Part shown: positions 5,171-26,680 of the stretch, piece after piece | How the letters are laid out: each line of letters starts with the position of its first letter | Numbering within the stretch: the stretch's first letter is position 1 | NCBI GenBank assembly: GCA_027621915.1 | Contig: JAQCAD010000023.1 | Location: forward strand, 1-47,599 | Reading direction: 5' to 3' | Source of the DNA: Pseudomonadota bacterium | GTDB lineage: Bacteria; Pseudomonadota; Gammaproteobacteria; Steroidobacterales; Woeseiaceae | Length of the DNA stretch: 47,599 nucleotides | Translations under genes and position numbers: made by a program | The notes under the pieces: generated by a model | Told to the model about the DNA's origin: nothing | Databases searched by the model: none | The model's input: only the letters and a program-made list of their open reading frames with translations

Positions 5171-7324
5171 CTACTGTGACCCAATTGCCTCAAGCGTGGT
5201 GGGGGCAGCGCGAACCACTTCCTGCAGGACTACTTCGGGTTCGTGCACATAATGACCTTGCATGTAGTGGACGCCGAGCTGAAAGAGAACGGCCATCGCA
5301 TTTGCGTTTTCCACGCGCTCGGCAATCGTCTCGATATTGCGTTGCTGTGCTGCAGATGCGAGTTGCCGGACAGCTTCCTGCATGGCCGTATCAGTCAAAA
5401 GAGAATGCATCAATTCTCCGTCGATCTTGATGTAATTCGGCTTGAGGATATCGAGAATCTGGAAGCGATTCTTGTCAACACCATAATGTTCCAGCGCAAA
5501 ACCAATTCCGGCCTTACGCAGCTCATCCGCTTTTTCTTTCGATTCTTTTATGTACTTCGCAGCATCCTGCTCGGGTATTTGAATGCAGAAGCAGGCCGGA
5601 TCGACCGCGTGATCCTGAAGTTCCGACCGAATCCATTCGACGAGAGAGTTATCCTGCATTGAATGTCGGGAAATACGAACGAACACAGTCTTCGCATTGG
5701 TGTCCTTGCAGTGCTCGATAGCCGCGGAAATGATCCAGCGGTCGATAGTCTTCATCAAATTATTCCGTTCAGCTGCCGGAAGGAACTCGGAAGGCAGAAT
5801 CGAGTTGCCTTGCTCATCGAGCATTCGAATCAGCATGTCGAACATCTTTGTGGATTCACTGCGCAGACCAGCGATTGGTAATTGCGCGAGGCGGAATCGC
5901 TTCTCTAGCATTGCCGCCTTGATCCTCTTCACCCATATTTCGTCGTATTTGCGCAACCGTGTATCGATATCCGTCGACTCGCGAAGGAACACTGAGTTGC
6001 CCCCGACAGATCTGCCCTGGTCATGAGCGTCCGCGACTGCGGACACCATTTCTTCGAGACTCGAAAACATGCTGCTTACGCCGACAACGCCGACTGTGCA
6101 TGTAAGGCGTACTTTTTGGTCGCCAATGTTGAATTCGTGTTTCTGCACATGTTCAACCAGTTGCTTACCCCAGACCTCAGCATCACGCTCGTTACCTCGC
6201 TCAAGAAGCGCCATGATTACGGTGCCCTCAAATCGACCTGCGACATCGCGAGGATGCATCCGCTTTCGAACCTCTTCAGAAAACTGTGCGAGAATTTCTT
6301 CGGTTTCGAGGATGCCGACCGCACTGCGCACCTCTGAAAAATCATCGGGTTTGATGTAGACGAGCGCTTGCAGACCGGATTTCGGCTTGCGCGAGAGGCG
6401 TTTCGTAACTCGCTCGAGAAACTGTGCGCGATGAAAAAAGAGCGTTGTCGGATCTCGTTTAAGGGCTTCGTGAACAAGCTTCGTTGGTTCCTCGGCCGCC
6501 GTTGGCAAAGATTCAATTCGAATCTGAACGTAAGGGCCATCATCGAATTCTACAATGCGGAATTCCAGGTCGAGGGCCGCCGCACTTCCGTCTTTCGCCC
6601 GCGTCTTCGCGTGGAGTTTGTCGCCCTTTTTCCATTTACTTTGCGTTGTGGCGATAAGCGCGCCTTTTACAGCGGCGTGGCTCTCTTCGAGGAAATTATC
6701 CATCAGCGGCAGGCCGACGATCTCGTCTTGCGTTTTTGCCTGAAATATACGCAGCCAGGCGTTGTTGACTTCGGTAACGATGCCTTCCTGTATGTACGCG
6801 ATTGCCGTGCTCGAGTTTTGCATGTAGTCGTGCAGTTGTTTTCGATATTCGGTCGCCGAGTTGAGCGTCGAATTCAGTGCGCGCTCCACCCGGAACGCAC
6901 GGAGTTCGCGATTGACAACGGCCAGGATTCGGGCCTTTTGGTCGCGTGACACCAAGTCAGCGGCTCCGTCTTTCATCGCCTTGAGGATCGACTCTTCATC
7001 AACTGATTCGCTGAGGGCAATGATCGGGACTTCCGGTATGAATCTGTCCTTCTGCTTGACGACTTGTCGAATCGGGTCCGGATAATTGTTCAAGTTGATA
7101 ATGATGAGTTCAATCCGTTCTTTGCCGAGAATATCGTCGAATCGGCCGGGCGTCTCGATCCAGTGACAATGCGCAGTATGTCCGGCGTCCCGCAGACTTC
7201 CGTTTACGAGTTGAACATCGTCCTGAGTGCCCGATAGTACGGCGATCGATACTGTATGCTTTTCGGTCAAGTCGAGGCCCTGAGTTCCCTGTTGCCGGCG
7301 GCGCCGGGCGTGTTCTGCCAACAC
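5171..7324 (-). CDS. FimX-like REC-PAS-GGDEF-EAL protein with degenerate catalytic motifs
   Basis: Probable cyclic-di-GMP effector and not an enzyme. The 717 aa contain a receiver-like domain about 24-145, a PAS domain about 160-275, a GGDEF-like domain about 290-450 and an EAL-like domain about 463-705. The GGDEF signature is replaced by RFEGT (364-368), so diguanylate cyclase activity is unlikely. The EAL motif position reads DML, and the metal-binding DDFG position reads EHYG. Late EAL-fold elements (KIDGELM, IAERVEN, MQGHYVHEP) remain. This domain order, length and decay resemble Pseudomonas FimX (691 aa), which binds c-di-GMP through a degenerate EAL domain and controls type IV pilus assembly. 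The FimV-like neighbour supports that role. The start is a GTG with no clear Shine-Dalgarno; a TTG 18 codons in is an alternative. Confidence 0.85.
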   Translation of the reverse strand: MLAEHARRRRQQGTQGLDLTEKHTVSIAVLSGTQDDVQLVNGSLRDAGHTAHCHWIETPGRFDDILGKERIELIIINLNNYPDPIRQVVKQKDRFIPEVPIIALSESVDEESILKAMKDGAADLVSRDQKARILAVVNRELRAFRVERALNSTLNSATEYRKQLHDYMQNSSTAIAYIQEGIVTEVNNAWLRIFQAKTQDEIVGLPLMDNFLEESHAAVKGALIATTQSKWKKGDKLHAKTRAKDGSAAALDLEFRIVEFDDGPYVQIRIESLPTAAEEPTKLVHEALKRDPTTLFFHRAQFLERVTKRLSRKPKSGLQALVYIKPDDFSEVRSAVGILETEEILAQFSEEVRKRMHPRDVAGRFEGTVIMALLERGNERDAEVWGKQLVEHVQKHEFNIGDQKVRLTCTVGVVGVSSMFSSLEEMVSAVADAHDQGRSVGGNSVFLRESTDIDTRLRKYDEIWVKRIKAAMLEKRFRLAQLPIAGLRSESTKMFDMLIRMLDEQGNSILPSEFLPAAERNNLMKTIDRWIISAAIEHCKDTNAKTVFVRISRHSMQDNSLVEWIRSELQDHAVDPACFCIQIPEQDAAKYIKESKEKADELRKAGIGFALEHYGVDKNRFQILDILKPNYIKIDGELMHSLLTDTAMQEAVRQLASAAQQRNIETIAERVENANAMAVLFQLGVHYMQGHYVHEPEVVLQEVVRAAPTTLEAIGSQ

Positions 7325-7490
7325 GAAATAAGTCTATACAGATCGCCTGAGGGAGTCCCTGATCCAGTGTCAAAAGCGTGACGGCTATCAATAAATAGGG
7401 GTTGCACCGCGCTGATTGTGCTCCCACGGGGTTCCGTACCGGCCTTTTCGGGGCCGTCAGCTGGTGCTTATCCTGAGAACAATTCACAGG

Positions 7491-7496
7491 TATGAT
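7491..7496 (+). promoter_or_regulatory. Possible -10 element of efp
   Basis: TATGAT matches the sigma-70 -10 consensus at five of six positions and lies 82 bases upstream of the efp ATG. The hexamer 17 bases further upstream (TTATCC) is a poor -35, so this is a weak prediction. The rest of 7325-7578 is the divergent upstream region of efp and the FimX-like gene; it also holds a CGGCC/GGCCG hairpin near 7440-7457. Confidence 0.3.
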
Positions 7497-7578
7497 TGCG
7501 CGCGCTGCCGGGATCGTGCCTCAGGCGGCAGTACCCAACGTAAATGTACCGGCCTTCGCGCCGCGTGTGGAATCGCAA

Positions 7579-8145
7579 ATGGCAAACTACAGTACCAGTG
7601 AATTCAAATCAGGGCTTCGTATCATTTTGGATAATGACCCTTGCGTCATCGTGGAAAACGAATTCGTGAAGCCGGGCAAAGGTCAGGCCTTTAATCGTGT
7701 TCGCGTCAAAAATCTGAAGACGGGAAAAGTAGTTGATAAAACATTCAAGTCAGGTGATAGCCTCGAAGGAGCAGACGTCGTAGACACCGACATGCAGTTT
7801 CTGTACTCGGACGGCGAGTTCTGGCACTTCATGGTTGCGGATACGTTCGAGCAATATGCTGCTGACGAGAAGTGCGTCGGTGATTCGAAGAAGTGGCTGA
7901 CTGAACAGGACATTTGCCAGGTTACATTGTGGAACAATTCACCATTACTTGTTGCGGCGCCGAACTTTGTCGAGCTCGAGATTACGGAAACTGATCCGGG
8001 ACTGCGTGGCGACACTTCGGGCGGTGGTGGAAAACCTGCGACGCTGTCAACTGGCGCTGTCGTTCGCGTTCCACTATTCGTCGAGCAAGGAGAATACGTT
8101 AAAGTTGACACCCGTTCCGGGGAGTATGTTTCGCGAGTCAAATAA
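7579..8145 (+). CDS. efp: Elongation factor P
   Basis: Translation factor that rescues ribosomes stalled at polyproline stretches. With the ATG at 7579 the protein is 188 aa, exactly the E. coli length, beginning [14 protein letters not shown]. An in-frame ATG at 7492 would add 29 unmatched residues and is rejected. The modification loop reads KPGKGQ with lysine at residue 34, the residue beta-lysylated by EpmA in enterobacteria; epmA lies 0.5 kb away on the other strand, which supports lysylation here. Three beta-barrel domains span the length; the C-terminal [14 protein letters not shown] is typical. The 3' end overlaps the convergent msrC by 8 bases. Confidence 0.96.
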
Positions 8146-8620
8146 AATTCAGCAGATCTTGTTTGGTCTTTGCCAGGCACTTCACGAAACGCTGGCAAAG
8201 AAGTTCGAGCCCGGATTGATCGACTTCAGAGAACCTGGCTTCGCGTGGGCTGTCAATATCGAGAACGGCAAAAACCGCCCCATTCGCGATTAGCGGCACT
8301 ACCACCTCTGATTTTGAATTGGGATCGCAAGTGATATGTCCGTGGAAATTGTGGACGTTGTCGACTTTAATAGTTCGTTTCTCGGCGGCGGCAGTTCCAC
8401 ATACGCCCCGACCCAGCGGGATATGCACGCACGCCGGCTGTCCCTGGAATGGGCCAAGCACAAGTTCGTCACCGCGCAATATATATAGTCCGAGCCAATT
8501 GATATCGTGAATTTCGGAAAACAACAGACCTACGAAATTTGCACTGGCGGCGAGCAGATCGTTCTCTTCTCCGATCAGCGCATCAAGCTGACGGTCGAGT
8601 ATTTTGTAGTCAACTGTCAT
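8138..8620 (-). CDS. msrC: Free methionine-(R)-sulfoxide reductase
   Basis: GAF-domain enzyme that reduces free L-methionine-(R)-sulfoxide (E. coli YebR/MsrC family). 160 aa, a single GAF domain. The three catalytic/resolving cysteines are conserved: C64, C74 (LGRGVCGTA) and C98 (GHITCDPNS), matching E. coli C84, C94 and C118. The core motifs [10 protein letters not shown] and LVLGPFQG also match. It is the last gene of the five-gene minus-strand operon and starts one base after the epmA stop, so translational coupling is likely. Its 3' end overlaps efp tail to tail. Confidence 0.93.
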
Positions 8621-22464: not shown

Positions 22465-24006
22465 ATGTGTGGCATCGTCGGAATTGTTGGAAAAAAGCCA
22501 GTCAACCAGTCGATTTACGATGCGCTTACAGTGCTGCAGCACCGTGGTCAGGACGCCGCTGGCATCGTTACCTGGGGTGATGATGGTCTGAAAATCAGAA
22601 AGAGCAATGGTCTGGTTCGCGATGTTTTTCGTCACCGCCACATGAGGAACCTGACGGGCAATGTCGGTATGGGGCACGTCCGCTACCCAACGGCCGGATC
22701 ATCAAAATCATCAGAGGCGCAGCCTTTTTACGTCAATTCGCCGTATGGCATTTGTCTCGCGCACAACGGAAATCTGACCAATCACAAAGAGCTTGCGGAC
22801 CTTTTGACTCGCGAGGATCGGCGTCATTTGAACACAGGATCCGATTCTGAAGTCCTGCTGAATGTGTTTGCCCATGAATTGCAGAATCTGGAAGACGGCC
22901 GACCGATGGTGGAGCAGATATTTGCTGCCATTGAAGCAGTCCACAATCGATGTTCAGGCGGATATGCGGTGGTAGCGATGATCGTCGGTTACGGAATCGT
23001 AGCTTTCCGTGACCCCAACGCGATCCGGCCGATAATGGTTGGTGAACGTGAAACACTGGCAGGCACGGAATTCATGGTGGCGTCGGAAAGCGTCGCAATG
23101 ACAACGCTGGGTTTTAAAAGCGTTCGAGATCTCGGACCAGGCGAGGCAATCTTTATTTCAAACGACGGTGTCTTGCACAGTCGACAGTATTCCGGTGCCA
23201 CCAGTTACTCCCCATGCATTTTCGAGTTTGTCTATTTCGCACGGCCAGATTCGATTATCGACAAACTGTCTGTCTACAAGGCGCGATTGCGAATGGGCGA
23301 GCAGCTGGCCGGGCAGATCGTCAGAGAGTGGCCGGATCACGATATTGATGTCGTGATACCGATTCCGGACACCAGCCGCACGGCGGCCGTGCAGGTTGCC
23401 TACCACCTGGGCGTCAAATATCGCGAAGGGTTTATCAAAAATCGGTACATCGGCAGGACTTTCATCATGCCGGGGCAGGCGGAGCGAACGCAATCTGTGC
23501 GGCGCAAACTCAATGCAATCGATCTCGAGTTCCGCGGCAAGAATGTACTGCTGGTGGACGATTCGATTGTCCGTGGCACGACGTCACGACAAATCATAAA
23601 AATGGCGCGCGAGGCTGGCGCAAGGCGAGTGTATTTCGCGTCGGCGGCGCCGCCAGTCAGATTTCCGAACGTCTACGGTATCGACATGCCGGCAGCTTCA
23701 GAGCTGATTGCGAATGGCCGCACAGTGAAACAAATCGAGGAACTGATCGGTGCCGACCGCCTGATATACCAGGATCTGCATGGCCTGATTCGCTCGGTAA
23801 GGCACGATAATTCCGAAATACGGAATTTCGATACATCGTGCTTTTCCGGGGAGTACGTTACCGACGACGTAACGCCCGCCTATCTTCACGCTCTTGAGAC
23901 TGCGAGATCCGACGAAGCGAAATTCCATAAGAACTCCAAGCGAACAGTGCGAGAGCTGGTCGTCGGGGATGAACCCAAGGGGGCCGGTCGCGCTGTCAGC
24001 GTGTGA
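22465..24006 (+). CDS. purF: Amidophosphoribosyltransferase
   Basis: First committed step of purine synthesis: PRPP plus glutamine to 5-phosphoribosylamine. 513 aa (E. coli 505). The N-terminal nucleophile cysteine follows the initiator methionine (MCGIVGIVG), with the glutaminase domain about 2-235. The PRPP-binding motif [15 protein letters not shown] lies at about 365-380. The sequence begins directly at the Ntn cysteine, so this is the non-iron-sulfur E. coli type without propeptide. Confidence 0.97.
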
Positions 24007-24063: not shown

Positions 24064-25266
24064 ATGAGCATAAAAGTCATGATTATTGACGGGCAGGCCG
24101 ATTTCCGGTCCTTGCTCATGCACCATGTGACGACGCATTGGCCGGATGCAATCATCTCCGCATACGATCCTGTCGCTGCGGGTCAGCTTCCTCGTGAATT
24201 CTCGGGTGCCGGTAACGACATCATCCTGCTTGGTGATAGTCAGGGTGACAAGGATCCAATTCTGACCTTGCGTCAGTTCGCCAAGAAGCCGACTTTTCCG
24301 GCTGTAATCTATTTCGGTGACGACAATAAAGTGCAGGCTCTGTCAGCGGGCGCCACCGCCTATTTCCAGAGGGACAATATTCGACACAACGCATTTATCG
24401 TGCACGTGAGCGACATTCTTCGAAACCGACAGCGCGTCGCCTCGACAGATTCATTATTTGTCGGCGACATGGCAACCGGCATTCATCCGCTGATCAAGGG
24501 CTATCGATTCCTCAAACGTCTTGCGGTCAGCGAACACTCCGCAGTTTATGTGGCCAGGAAGGAGTCGGTCGACGTCAACATGGTGCTAAAAGTGTTGCGA
24601 CAAGTGCCGGATGTATCGGACGGATTGGGTGCCTTCGATCGATTCCTGCAGGAATACGAGATGATCGCCGGGTTGCATCATCCAAACATTGTCAAGATTT
24701 ACGACCTCGGCGTGAGCGATGACCACGCCCACATCGCGATGGAGTACGTTCCGGGCGGAGACCTCAGGAAACGGATAGACGAGGGGATATTGCAGGCCGA
24801 TGCGGTTGAGTACATGAGACAGATCGCCAGCGCGCTTTCGAAATTACATTCATTAGGAATCCTTCACCGCGATCTCAAACCCGGGAACATCATGGTGCGG
24901 GATGACAACACGCTGGTACTGATCGATTTCGGGCTGGCCAAACGAATGCGCCTTGAACAGGAGATCACCGGCAATGGCGAGATTTTCGGTACGCCGTATT
25001 ATATGAGTCCTGAGCAGGGTCACGCCGGCGATGTTGATGAACGCAGTGATATTTATGCGTTAGGTGTGATTTTTTATGAGATGTTAACCGGGAAAAAGCC
25101 CTACCTGGGGCCCGACGCGATGAGCATTATCCTAAAACACACGAAGGCACCGGTCCCAATACTCCCGCATCGACTCAGTCAGTATCAGGCGCTGTTGAAC
25201 ATGCTGCTTGCCAAGCGGCCACAGGATCGCCTCCAGTCGGCAAAAGAGGTGCTCGATTGGCTGTAG
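24064..25266 (+). CDS. Pseudo-receiver / Hanks-type Ser/Thr protein kinase fusion
   Basis: Predicted cytoplasmic serine/threonine kinase fused to an N-terminal receiver-like domain. 400 aa. Residues 1-125 look like a CheY fold (MIIDGQADFRSLL, NDIILLGDSQG), but the acidic pair is DG and glycine occupies the phospho-acceptor position, so classic phosphorylation is doubtful. Kinase domain about 146-400: catalytic lysine K176, HRDLKPGN with D270 and N275, DFG with D288, and GTPYYMSPE. The glycine loop is atypical (LAVSEHSAVYVA), as in some bacterial kinases that remain active. There is no transmembrane or PASTA segment. An AGGAAGG Shine-Dalgarno lies 8 bases before the ATG. The stop overlaps the miaE start, so the two are coupled. 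Its substrate is unknown. Confidence 0.88.
   Translation: MSIKVMIIDGQADFRSLLMHHVTTHWPDAIISAYDPVAAGQLPREFSGAGNDIILLGDSQGDKDPILTLRQFAKKPTFPAVIYFGDDNKVQALSAGATAYFQRDNIRHNAFIVHVSDILRNRQRVASTDSLFVGDMATGIHPLIKGYRFLKRLAVSEHSAVYVARKESVDVNMVLKVLRQVPDVSDGLGAFDRFLQEYEMIAGLHHPNIVKIYDLGVSDDHAHIAMEYVPGGDLRKRIDEGILQADAVEYMRQIASALSKLHSLGILHRDLKPGNIMVRDDNTLVLIDFGLAKRMRLEQEITGNGEIFGTPYYMSPEQGHAGDVDERSDIYALGVIFYEMLTGKKPYLGPDAMSIILKHTKAPVPILPHRLSQYQALLNMLLAKRPQDRLQSAKEVLDWL
25244..25251 (+). promoter_or_regulatory. Shine-Dalgarno for miaE inside the kinase gene
   Basis: AAGAGGTG, five bases before an in-frame TTG at 25257, within the last codons of the kinase gene. It is a strong match to the anti-SD sequence and supports the TTG start and translational coupling. 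Confidence 0.65.
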
Positions 25267-25919
25267 CATCTGTCCCGGAAACTGTTGCTGATTTTCTCGA
25301 TACGCACACGCCACCAGAGTGGGTCGCAGAGGCGTGTCGACGATTACCGGAGCTTCTGCACGACCATGCCAACTGCGAGCTGAAAGCTGCGTCGACAGCG
25401 TTGGGCATTATCTATCGATATCCGGACAGGGCGTTGCTGGCGCACCGAATGTCGCGCCTCGCGCGCGAAGAATTGCGTCATTTTGAGCAGGTTAGAAAGA
25501 TGCTTTCAGAAATGTCGATTCCATTTGAGCACCTCTCAGCGTCGCGATATGCAGGCACACTTCGCCGTGAAGTCAGGGACAGGGAGCCACAACGCTTGCT
25601 GGACTTGCTGCTGGTTGGTGCGCTGATAGAGGCGCGCTCATGCGAGAGATTCGCGGCGCTCGTGCCCCATCTCCCAAATGAAATTGGCAATTTTTATGCG
25701 GGCCTGCTGGCTTCTGAGGCCAGGCACTTTGAGCAATATCTGGCGTTTGCCCGCGAAGAGTGTGATGTTGACGATGATGTGTTCGAAGAACGGCTGGCAA
25801 AACTCAAAAAAATTGAGGCTGACCTGATATCTGCACCGGATAGTCAGTTCAGGTTTCATTCTGGAGTCCCCAGCTCGCGCGAACCGGCTTCTGATCATTT
25901 TCCGGTCGGCGCAGACTGA
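25257..25919 (+). CDS. miaE: tRNA 2-methylthio-N6-isopentenyladenosine37 hydroxylase
   Basis: Di-iron monooxygenase that hydroxylates ms2i6A37 to ms2io6A37 in tRNAs reading UNN codons. 220 aa, ferritin-like helical bundle. The iron ligands can be read as E41 (CELKAA), E72 and H75 (EELRHF), E125 (IEARSCERF), and E154 and H157 (SEARHFEQY), matching the duplicated E...ExxH pattern. It starts at a TTG and overlaps the kinase gene by 10 bases. miaA and miaB, which make its substrate, are not in this window. Confidence 0.92.
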   Translation: MAVASVPETVADFLDTHTPPEWVAEACRRLPELLHDHANCELKAASTALGIIYRYPDRALLAHRMSRLAREELRHFEQVRKMLSEMSIPFEHLSASRYAGTLRREVRDREPQRLLDLLLVGALIEARSCERFAALVPHLPNEIGNFYAGLLASEARHFEQYLAFAREECDVDDDVFEERLAKLKKIEADLISAPDSQFRFHSGVPSSREPASDHFPVGAD

Positions 25920-25957: not shown

Positions 25958-26680
25958 TCAGCGTGCGAGCGAACTCAAAACCGGCCCGTTCCGGTCCCAG
26001 CGGACCACACTGCCGTGCTCGTACCAGTCACCGAGTACGATCCGCCTGGCTTGCTTGCCGTCAACCTCTATTTCATGCACGGCTGGTCGGTGAGTATGTC
26101 CGTGCAGCATGAGTGTTACATTTGCCTGCCGGAGCGCTGATTTGATCGCGGCCTGATTGACGTCAGTGATTGCCTGGTCGATGTTGTCGCCGTGCGCTTT
26201 GCTGTCAGCACGTGCCTGCTCGGAAAACGAAATTCTTTCTTCCAGTGACCTGGTCAACATCGTGGCCTGCCATTTCGGATCGCGAGTCATTTTTCGAACC
26301 GCCTGATACTGGATATCGTCGGTGCAGTAGATATCTCCATGGCTGAGCAAAACGTTTTCGCCGTGAACTTCGACGATGTAGGGATCTGTCAGAATAGTAA
26401 TCCCGGTTTCGTCGGCGAAATCCTGACCAATCATGAAGTCGCGATTGCCATGCATGAAAAATACAGGAATGTTTTTCTTCGTCAGCTTGCGAAGGCCCTG
26501 TTTAATCCATGCATAGTGTTCATTGGGATCGTCGTCGCCGACCCAGAATTCGAACAAATCACCGAGAATATAAAGCGCATCGGCGTTTAGCGCCTCGGTT
26601 TCCAGGAACTGAAGAAACTGATTCGCAATATCTGGCCTGTCGACCTCAATGTGGAGGTCGGAAACAAAGAGTGTTGTCAC
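25958..26680 (-). CDS. lpxH: UDP-2,3-diacylglucosamine diphosphatase
   Basis: Lipid A pathway enzyme that hydrolyses UDP-2,3-diacylglucosamine to lipid X and UMP at the inner membrane. 240 aa (E. coli 240). The calcineurin-like metal ligands are visible: D8 and H10 in SDLHIE, D41 in LGDLFEFW, N79 in HGNRDF, H114 in LLSHGD, and the HGHTHRP pair. It follows the cyclophilin gene on the minus strand with a six-base gap, as in Pseudomonas, and is convergent with miaE. Confidence 0.95.
   Translation of the reverse strand: MTTLFVSDLHIEVDRPDIANQFLQFLETEALNADALYILGDLFEFWVGDDDPNEHYAWIKQGLRKLTKKNIPVFFMHGNRDFMIGQDFADETGITILTDPYIVEVHGENVLLSHGDIYCTDDIQYQAVRKMTRDPKWQATMLTRSLEERISFSEQARADSKAHGDNIDQAITDVNQAAIKSALRQANVTLMLHGHTHRPAVHEIEVDGKQARRIVLGDWYEHGSVVRWDRNGPVLSSLAR

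Follow-up and report, generated by a model that had tools for sequence, protein, structure and literature searches.

A Hanks-type kinase that overlaps miaE in Woeseiaceae is probably an orphaned phosphorelay output with a conserved pseudo-receiver

In a phosphorelay, a histidine phosphotransfer (Hpt) domain passes phosphate from its histidine to the aspartate of a receiver domain. Overlapping genes can be coupled in translation, and MiaE is the hydroxylase that produces ms2io6A in tRNA. We analysed a stretch of 47,599 nucleotides from a gammaproteobacterium of the family Woeseiaceae (contig JAQCAD010000023.1 of assembly GCA_027621915.1; hereafter the window), in which the gene for a Ser/Thr kinase with a receiver-like N-terminus runs into miaE. 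Several described systems bear on this arrangement. Group 1 Rup small-GTPase systems comprise a GTPase without the G3 Gln, a coiled-coil protein, a membrane protein with an OmpA C-terminus and a histidine kinase as output, and the section devoted to them mentions neither Hpt, OmpR-type regulators nor Ser/Thr kinases (Wuichet & Sogaard-Andersen 2014, PMC4316618). For pseudo-receivers as a class, the mechanism of control has been called a mystery in a review, which also describes fungal Rim15 kinases, whose receiver is a true one or, with D replaced by Glu, a pseudo-receiver, depending on the lineage (PMC12632262). Pseudomonas PA3346 is described as a case in which a receiver switches an enzyme of Ser/Thr phosphorylation once a histidine kinase has phosphorylated that receiver (PMC12189002). 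Our comparison of the window with related genomes suggests that its kinase is probably the orphaned output of a phosphorelay, equipped with a conserved pseudo-receiver, and that miaE is an operon neighbour that the kinase does not control.

The kinase domain (Table 1) is matched by Pfam Pkinase over residues 157-397 (E value (E) 1.8e-48) and retains its catalytic residues: Lys176 (24589-24591), H268RDLKPGN275 (24865-24888) and D288FG290 (24925-24933), all invariant in an alignment of 55 rows with the exception of Gly274, as well as SPEQG. Its glycine loop, LAVSEHSAVYVA, departs from the canonical GxGxxG and is variable among 63 aligned sequences. An earlier, sequence-only reading of the window had described this very combination, an atypical glycine loop with intact HRDLKPGN and DFG behind a receiver-like domain without a good phospho-acceptor, and each of these features is borne out here. 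The closest solved kinase domains by sequence are those of StkP (1e-43) and PknB (2.7e-39); the NCBIfam PknB_PASTA model scores 231 against a cut-off of 450, with a match confined to the kinase part of the protein. The N-terminus of the window kinase gives no Pfam match to Response_reg; elsewhere the receiver match ranges from weak (0.0055 in locus L078) to strong (1.5e-15 in L043). Since the best 50 matches listed in a fold search with the full-length kinase were all kinases or kinase complexes, the N-terminal domain was modelled by itself. The AlphaFold model (predicted local distance difference test score 90) displays a (beta-alpha)5 receiver fold without alpha2, which Foldseek relates to receivers such as KdpE, PmrA and CpxR with a probability of 1.00 (template-modelling score on the query 0.62-0.78, E 2e-6 to 4e-5, for the best 50 matches listed). 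The acceptor position is taken by Gly57 (24232-24234), common to all 36 aligned sequences of the family (here and below, Woeseiaceae), the acidic pair is Asp9-Gly10 instead of Asp-Asp, and the conserved T and K are missing. Judging from this model, the N-terminus is a receiver fold without phosphotransfer residues, i.e., a predicted pseudo-receiver.

Table 1. Position of the kinase, miaE, their junction and the flanking anchor genes in the window
Feature	Position	Strand	Remarks
Ser/Thr kinase gene	24064-25266	+	400 aa, ATG start, stop TAG
Pseudo-receiver domain, residues 1-122	24064..24429	+	predicted receiver fold, loop in place of helix alpha2
Linker, residues 123-145	24430..24498	+	modelled with low confidence over 123-142
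Hanks-type Ser/Thr kinase domain, residues 146-400	24499..25263	+	Pfam Pkinase, catalytic motifs
AGAGG, Shine-Dalgarno-like	25245..25249	+	within kinase Lys-Glu-Val codons, 7 nt before miaE TTG
10-bp overlap TTGGCTGTAG	25257..25266	+	miaE start in kinase Asp-Trp codons; kinase stop TAG
miaE, tRNA ms2io6A hydroxylase, 220 aa	25257..25919	+	PF06175, E 2.4e-70
purF, upstream anchor	22465..24006	+	TIGR01134, E 5e-155
lpxH, convergent downstream anchor	25958..26680	-	TIGR01854, E 2.5e-87, above cut-off

What might such a receiver once have been connected to? In the sister families f5, f7, f14 and f16, the gene order downstream of the kinase, in the loci that reach far enough, is OmpR-type regulator, 180-200-aa protein, OmpA-type membrane protein, Ras-like GTPase, hybrid histidine kinase and finally miaE. 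This cassette lies between purF and miaE in L043 (2982-10789), L045, L050, L056, L057, L058, L060 and L064. Pfam identifies the hybrid kinase (HisKA-HATPase-receiver) in 8/8 loci scanned (L043, L045, L050, L056, L057, L060, L064 and L071) and the OmpR-type regulator in 9/9 (L043, L045, L050, L056, L057, L058, L060, L064 and L210). Upstream of the kinase, eight of the nine cassette genomes carry an Hpt domain, which stands alone in seven (L043, L045, L050, L056, L058, L060 and L064; six above the Pfam cut-off and that of L043, at 23.8 bits, just below the cut-off of 24.6) and sits at the end of a MOFRL protein in the eighth (L057); in the ninth genome, G097, the contig ends before the Hpt position and leaves no readable sequence. 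The fused form is a DUF4147-MOFRL protein with a C-terminal Hpt, immediately upstream of the receiver-kinase (L057:1876-3456), and the same slot holds MOFRL-type proteins with no Hpt noted in L040, L084, L085 and L090. The GTPase matches Ras (E 6.9e-32 and 2.6e-28) and lacks the G3 Gln in 9/9 rows (WDIAGTD and variants). The OmpA C-terminus scores 28.3 against a cut-off of 27.2 in L043 and falls below it in L060, and the alignment of the nine rows spans most of their length. The protein of about 190 aa is a putative coiled-coil protein, whose only matches, to Apolipoprotein, lie far below the cut-off (E 0.003-0.007). Taken together, these genes resemble a Group 1 Rup cassette with Hpt, an OmpR-type regulator and a receiver-Ser/Thr kinase as further members, apparently an uncharacterised signalling system.

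Parts of this set also occur apart from one another. Hpt and cassette are present and the receiver-kinase is absent from the locus in f8 (L210:2022-2333, L211:2093-2404). An additional receiver-kinase copy, 37-38% identical to that of the window, is found in G090 and G077 (L065, L066), with no purF seen on the contig concerned. In 11/61 family genomes (G016, G017, G021, G026, G027, G030, G034, G044, G050, G054 and G057), a Rup OmpA-type protein and a GTPase are encoded separately, elsewhere in the genome.

The state of the receiver differs between these lineages. With the aspartates scored by script and T and K read from alignment output, the full set of acidic pair, acceptor D, T and K is present in 9/9 cassette genomes and in 2/2 of f11, and in 0/36 of the window's family. 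All three f9 sequences possess the pair and the acceptor and lack T and K, and the sequences of f2, f4, f10 and f15 miss at least one receiver aspartate. A survey of 369 genomes of the class returned kinase matches at 1e-60 in 133, many of them over the kinase domain only. Among the matches listed, 20 loci from 17 genomes outside the order were picked by hand, without G279, G310, G190 and certain second copies; their kinship with the window kinase is one of architecture, and their orthology is not proven. The receiver set, with T or S, is complete in 15 of the 20 as read from the alignment, and incomplete in L201, L202, L207, L208 and L209. A hybrid kinase, an Hpt and a receiver-kinase stand in a row in L195 and L197, and an Hpt and a receiver-kinase in L204. 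The L197 version (5859-8575) is a compact hybrid kinase-Hpt-receiver-Ser/Thr-kinase operon with a 4-bp stop/start overlap followed by a 3-bp gap.

The decayed receiver of the window's family has not been left to drift freely, to judge by its substitution pattern. The ratio of nonsynonymous to synonymous substitution rates (dN/dS) is 0.05-0.16 for the pseudo-receiver in 8/8 family pairs, which points to purifying selection, and 0.04-0.13 for the kinase domain in the seven computable pairs, the pseudo-receiver being higher in six of them. The single f11 pair, with its complete receiver, is looser (0.46 for the receiver, 0.26 for the kinase). These values, along with the intact catalytic residues, speak against the notion that the kinase is a decaying remnant without a current role. 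That notion could draw on the kinase being absent beside an intact miaE in five family genomes and on nine more that have neither gene, as well as on the in-frame TGA in the kinase match of G040; however, 11 of the 14 kinase losses in the family fall in genomes of at most 2.0 Mb (the others are G005, G018 and G008), and we regard a remnant as improbable. The G040 locus (L213, G040:C63) also has an in-frame TAA in its MiaE match, which may reflect decay or an assembly error.

In the window's own genome (G000, with the window on contig C16), the Rup OmpA-type protein and GTPase gave no match at 1e-15, and a separate Hpt gene was not found. Three Hpt matches lie within one 1827-aa frame on another contig than the window (G000:C70:17697-18887). 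Because the assembly is 95% complete, the absence of the Rup parts and of a separate Hpt is likely rather than certain. Three PP2C-type phosphatase matches are found elsewhere in this genome. Could a non-cognate histidine kinase or a small-molecule donor nevertheless phosphorylate the receiver, be it at Asp58 or at some other acidic residue? The retained fold and Asp9, invariant among 34 rows, would be compatible with this. On the other hand, position 58 varies within the family (D, E, N, S), T and K are gone, and the only Hpt matches of the genome are those of the single large frame; we therefore consider such phosphorylation very unlikely.

The second partner at the junction is a genuine miaE, as the sequence-only reading had it. 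Pfam MiaE (PF06175) scores 236.8 bits against a cut-off of 27, and the window protein matches the solved structures 2itb (E 4e-56) and 8fhc (3.7e-57) of the Protein Data Bank (PDB); the longer NCBIfam equivalog NF047790, a model of 251 positions, gives 216.7 bits and stays below its cut-off of 320. The TTG start is the sole ATG, GTG or TTG in the open frame of miaE ahead of the conserved region, and the same reading was right about the Shine-Dalgarno-like AGAGG in the last codons of the kinase and the 10-base overlap. Among the 35 family junctions examined (covering 35 of the family's 46 genomes with both genes, with miaE starts in relatives picked by rule), the overlap is exactly 10 bp in 27, 4 bp in six and 13 bp in one, and a 6-bp gap separates the genes in one. 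The exact 10-bp overlap is more frequent in the family than expected by chance. However, the kinase Trp that provides miaE with its start codon also occurs near the C-terminus of the three f15 kinases, which have no neighbouring miaE. The start may therefore be a side effect of the kinase sequence, and we rejected the idea that selection for the miaE start conserves the penultimate kinase Trp. The start of miaE overlaps the stop of the hybrid kinase in some sister-family loci (offsets of -4, -4 and -8 in L056, L057 and L050, negative values denoting overlap) and that of a DUF3422 gene in others (-8 and -8 in L054 and L055). The latter gene, confirmed by family search (L054:3536-4861, L055:4658-5974), stands between kinase and miaE in f11. 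A predicted translational coupling of miaE to whichever gene precedes it is well supported by the sequence.

Does the close pairing also mean control? The sequence-only reading had proposed a functional pair in which the kinase might govern MiaE. On this account the kinase would phosphorylate MiaE or a MiaE partner and tune ms2io6A37 to a signal received by the pseudo-receiver, the overlap keeping both products in step. The recurrence of the exact 10-bp overlap fits this account, and so does gene order. For the co-occurrence count, orthologue places were assigned by hand to 72 kinases (those of G001 and G069 partial) and 75 MiaE proteins. The count disregards paralogues (among them G090:C112 and G077:C252) and, for MiaE, second copies that are distant as well as the sole copy of G074, likewise distant. 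With "adjacent" meaning less than 150 bp between the two matches, kinase and miaE are adjacent in 45 of the 46 two-gene family genomes; in the exception, G028, 1.9 kb separate them, and a 405-aa open reading frame on the opposite strand without a Pfam match lies between the two retained genes (L079:2942-4156). In another genome of the same genus (G007:C98), the kinase matches at 83% over residues 1-400. Conservation of the pair, which the sequence-only reading had named as a test, is thus split: it holds within the family but not outside, where the genes may lie 5.3-5.5 kb apart or one partner may be missing.

The two genes also part company within the family: 46 of its 61 genomes have both, five miaE only, one the kinase only (at a contig end) and nine neither. 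The other families of the order, represented by 38 genomes, have both in 21, the kinase only in four (of which one has it at a contig end and another has a distant MiaE elsewhere), miaE only in three and neither in ten. The 21 comprise 11 genomes with adjacent genes, seven with the long separation, two in which the 1.4-kb DUF3422 gene intervenes and one with the genes on two contigs. Throughout, the purF-lpxH frame is largely fixed while kinase and miaE vary separately. In those relatives' loci that reach purF, it stands upstream of the kinase, of Hpt, of the MOFRL gene or of miaE, and lpxH lies downstream in most loci of sufficient length, including those without miaE or kinase. Thus miaE follows purF directly in G018, G005 and G037; lpxH follows the kinase in f15 with no miaE between (L041, L042, L046); and within loci L081-L091, 11 in all, miaE directly follows the kinase in nine (one truncated at a contig end) and lpxH takes its place in two, L085 being on the same contig as the locus of G090.

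In G048, the kinase has been deleted and both of its ends remain before an intact miaE start, which the 3' remnant still contains. The 5' remnant agrees with its best relative at 34/42 bases (best of 1000 shuffles, 24) and the 3' remnant with four relatives at 22-24/33 (best of 1000 shuffles, 20-21) and with the kinase of the window at only 18/33. In its sister G056, neither kinase end is visible by eye and miaE has another ATG. A similar relic was sought in G005, where the purF-miaE gap gave no match above shuffles, leaving G048 as the sole scar. Since the losses are separate and run in both directions, since the G048 scar leaves miaE in place without a kinase, and since miaE abuts other genes elsewhere, the pairing probably reflects gene order rather than control. 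In the survey of the class, MiaE (PF06175 at 1e-20) is found in 51 of the 369 genomes and in none of the 17 outside the order whose kinase-architecture loci were read, and the main text of a Pseudomonas tRNA-modification screen uses the word "kinase" 0 times (PMC12300143). Dedicated control is, in our estimation, unlikely. Of the coupled functional pair, what stands is the translational coupling to the upstream gene; the functional part, and with it kinase control of MiaE, finds no support in genes that are lost independently. A kinase-MiaE system is not known to have been described, and none surfaced in our search at the level of titles and abstracts in a mostly open-access literature.

A number of observations weigh against the view of an orphaned relay output beside an uninvolved miaE. 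Outside the family, kinase and miaE are likewise adjacent in 11 of the 21 genomes that have both, which shows that the pair has long resided together, and G018, one of the five miaE-only genomes, falls outside the family in the PurF tree. The remaining junctions between hybrid kinase and miaE are uneven, at -14, -20, +19, +11, +10 and +47 (L060, L043, L045, L064, L071 and L072). The f11 genomes have a complete receiver without the cassette, and outside the order a strong Hpt match is nearby in three of the 20 loci and a weak one in two more; in those genomes the locus thus does not, as a rule, include relay genes. The search of the window's genome could have missed a weak stand-alone Hpt, as the Hpt of L043 itself illustrates. 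In the concatenated tree, a single branch sets the cassette genomes apart from the others (approximate likelihood-ratio support, SH-aLRT, 91, not starred), and the link between receiver and cassette amounts to one independent pair on supported branches (three on all), a number at which significance is unreachable; the PurF tree requires three changes. The presence of the cassette may then represent a single event, and the cassette could have been inserted between kinase and miaE instead of being ancestral. We therefore rejected co-evolution of cassette and receiver as independent evidence. Given this weak phylogenetic control, a decay of the receiver after loss of the relay is favoured, not shown, and the cassette might instead have been inserted beside a kinase whose receiver was already intact.

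How might the orphaned kinase work? We envision that in the relatives a hybrid kinase would pass phosphate to the histidine of Hpt and from there to the receiver aspartate, and that this phosphate would alter the activity of the Ser/Thr kinase. In the window's family, the relay genes would have disappeared from the locus and the receiver would subsequently have lost its acceptor, and with it, presumably, its phosphorylation in vivo. Because the receiver lost the acceptor yet is under purifying selection, at a locus without relay genes, the activity of the window kinase is most likely set by a phosphorylation-independent pseudo-receiver, conceivably through dimerisation or the binding of a ligand or partner. 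The kinase would act on substrates other than MiaE, which would be a mere neighbour. For its part, miaE would be a gene in its own right within the purF-lpxH interval, with a start that often falls inside the end of the preceding gene; in the window, it would be translated by coupling or reinitiation after the kinase. More broadly, and more tentatively, we can imagine a recurrent gammaproteobacterial circuit of hybrid kinase, Hpt and receiver-Ser/Thr kinase, embedded in several families in an envelope-sensing cassette of Rup GTPase and OmpA proteins at purF-miaE, from which the family of the window would have disconnected its kinase and given the pseudo-receiver a new input.

These loci offer a natural comparison, in which one kinase gene at one locus has either a complete receiver with likely relay partners or a dead, constrained receiver without them. 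The question of how pseudo-receivers exert control thereby becomes testable on an output that is a kinase, and Hanks kinases become linked with phosphorelays as well as with the Group 1 Rup GTPases, which are uncharacterised. The comparison also counsels caution: a conserved overlap need not mean regulation, as miaE overlaps different genes in different families. The literature searched was mostly open access; a bacterial receiver-Hanks kinase was not described in its titles and abstract openings, and neither a phosphorelay into a Hanks kinase plus Rup nor its natural disconnection surfaced there. The parts themselves are of known kinds.

Set against the solved MiaE hydroxylases (PDB 2itb, 8fhc and 6zma), the MiaE of the window is homologous over nearly its whole length and shows no sequence difference in kind; only its gene neighbourhood is unusual. 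The kinase domain has its nearest solved relatives in the PknB/StkP type of Hanks kinases, from which the protein differs by the N-terminal pseudo-receiver. With Pseudomonas PA3346, it shares a receiver coupled to an enzyme of Ser/Thr phosphorylation, whereas PA3346 is described as having a phosphatase as output and a functional receiver (PMC12189002). Like Rim15, it is a protein kinase whose receiver is true or pseudo depending on lineage; unlike the window kinase, with its N-terminal receiver and Gly, Rim15 is eukaryotic and is described with a C-terminal receiver and Glu (PMC12632262). As in the bacterial pseudo-receivers reviewed there, the domain is an orphan receiver fold without phosphotransfer residues, but its output is a Hanks kinase, whereas the main text of that review contains neither "Pkinase" nor "threonine kinase", and the domain is invisible to Pfam as a receiver. 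Finally, the cassette of the sister families contains counterparts of the four published parts of Group 1 Rup (PMC4316618), the one of the coiled-coil protein being putative. It differs from the published set in that its output is a hybrid histidine kinase and in having Hpt, an OmpR-type regulator and a receiver-Ser/Thr kinase as additional members; the window's own genome gave no Rup match.

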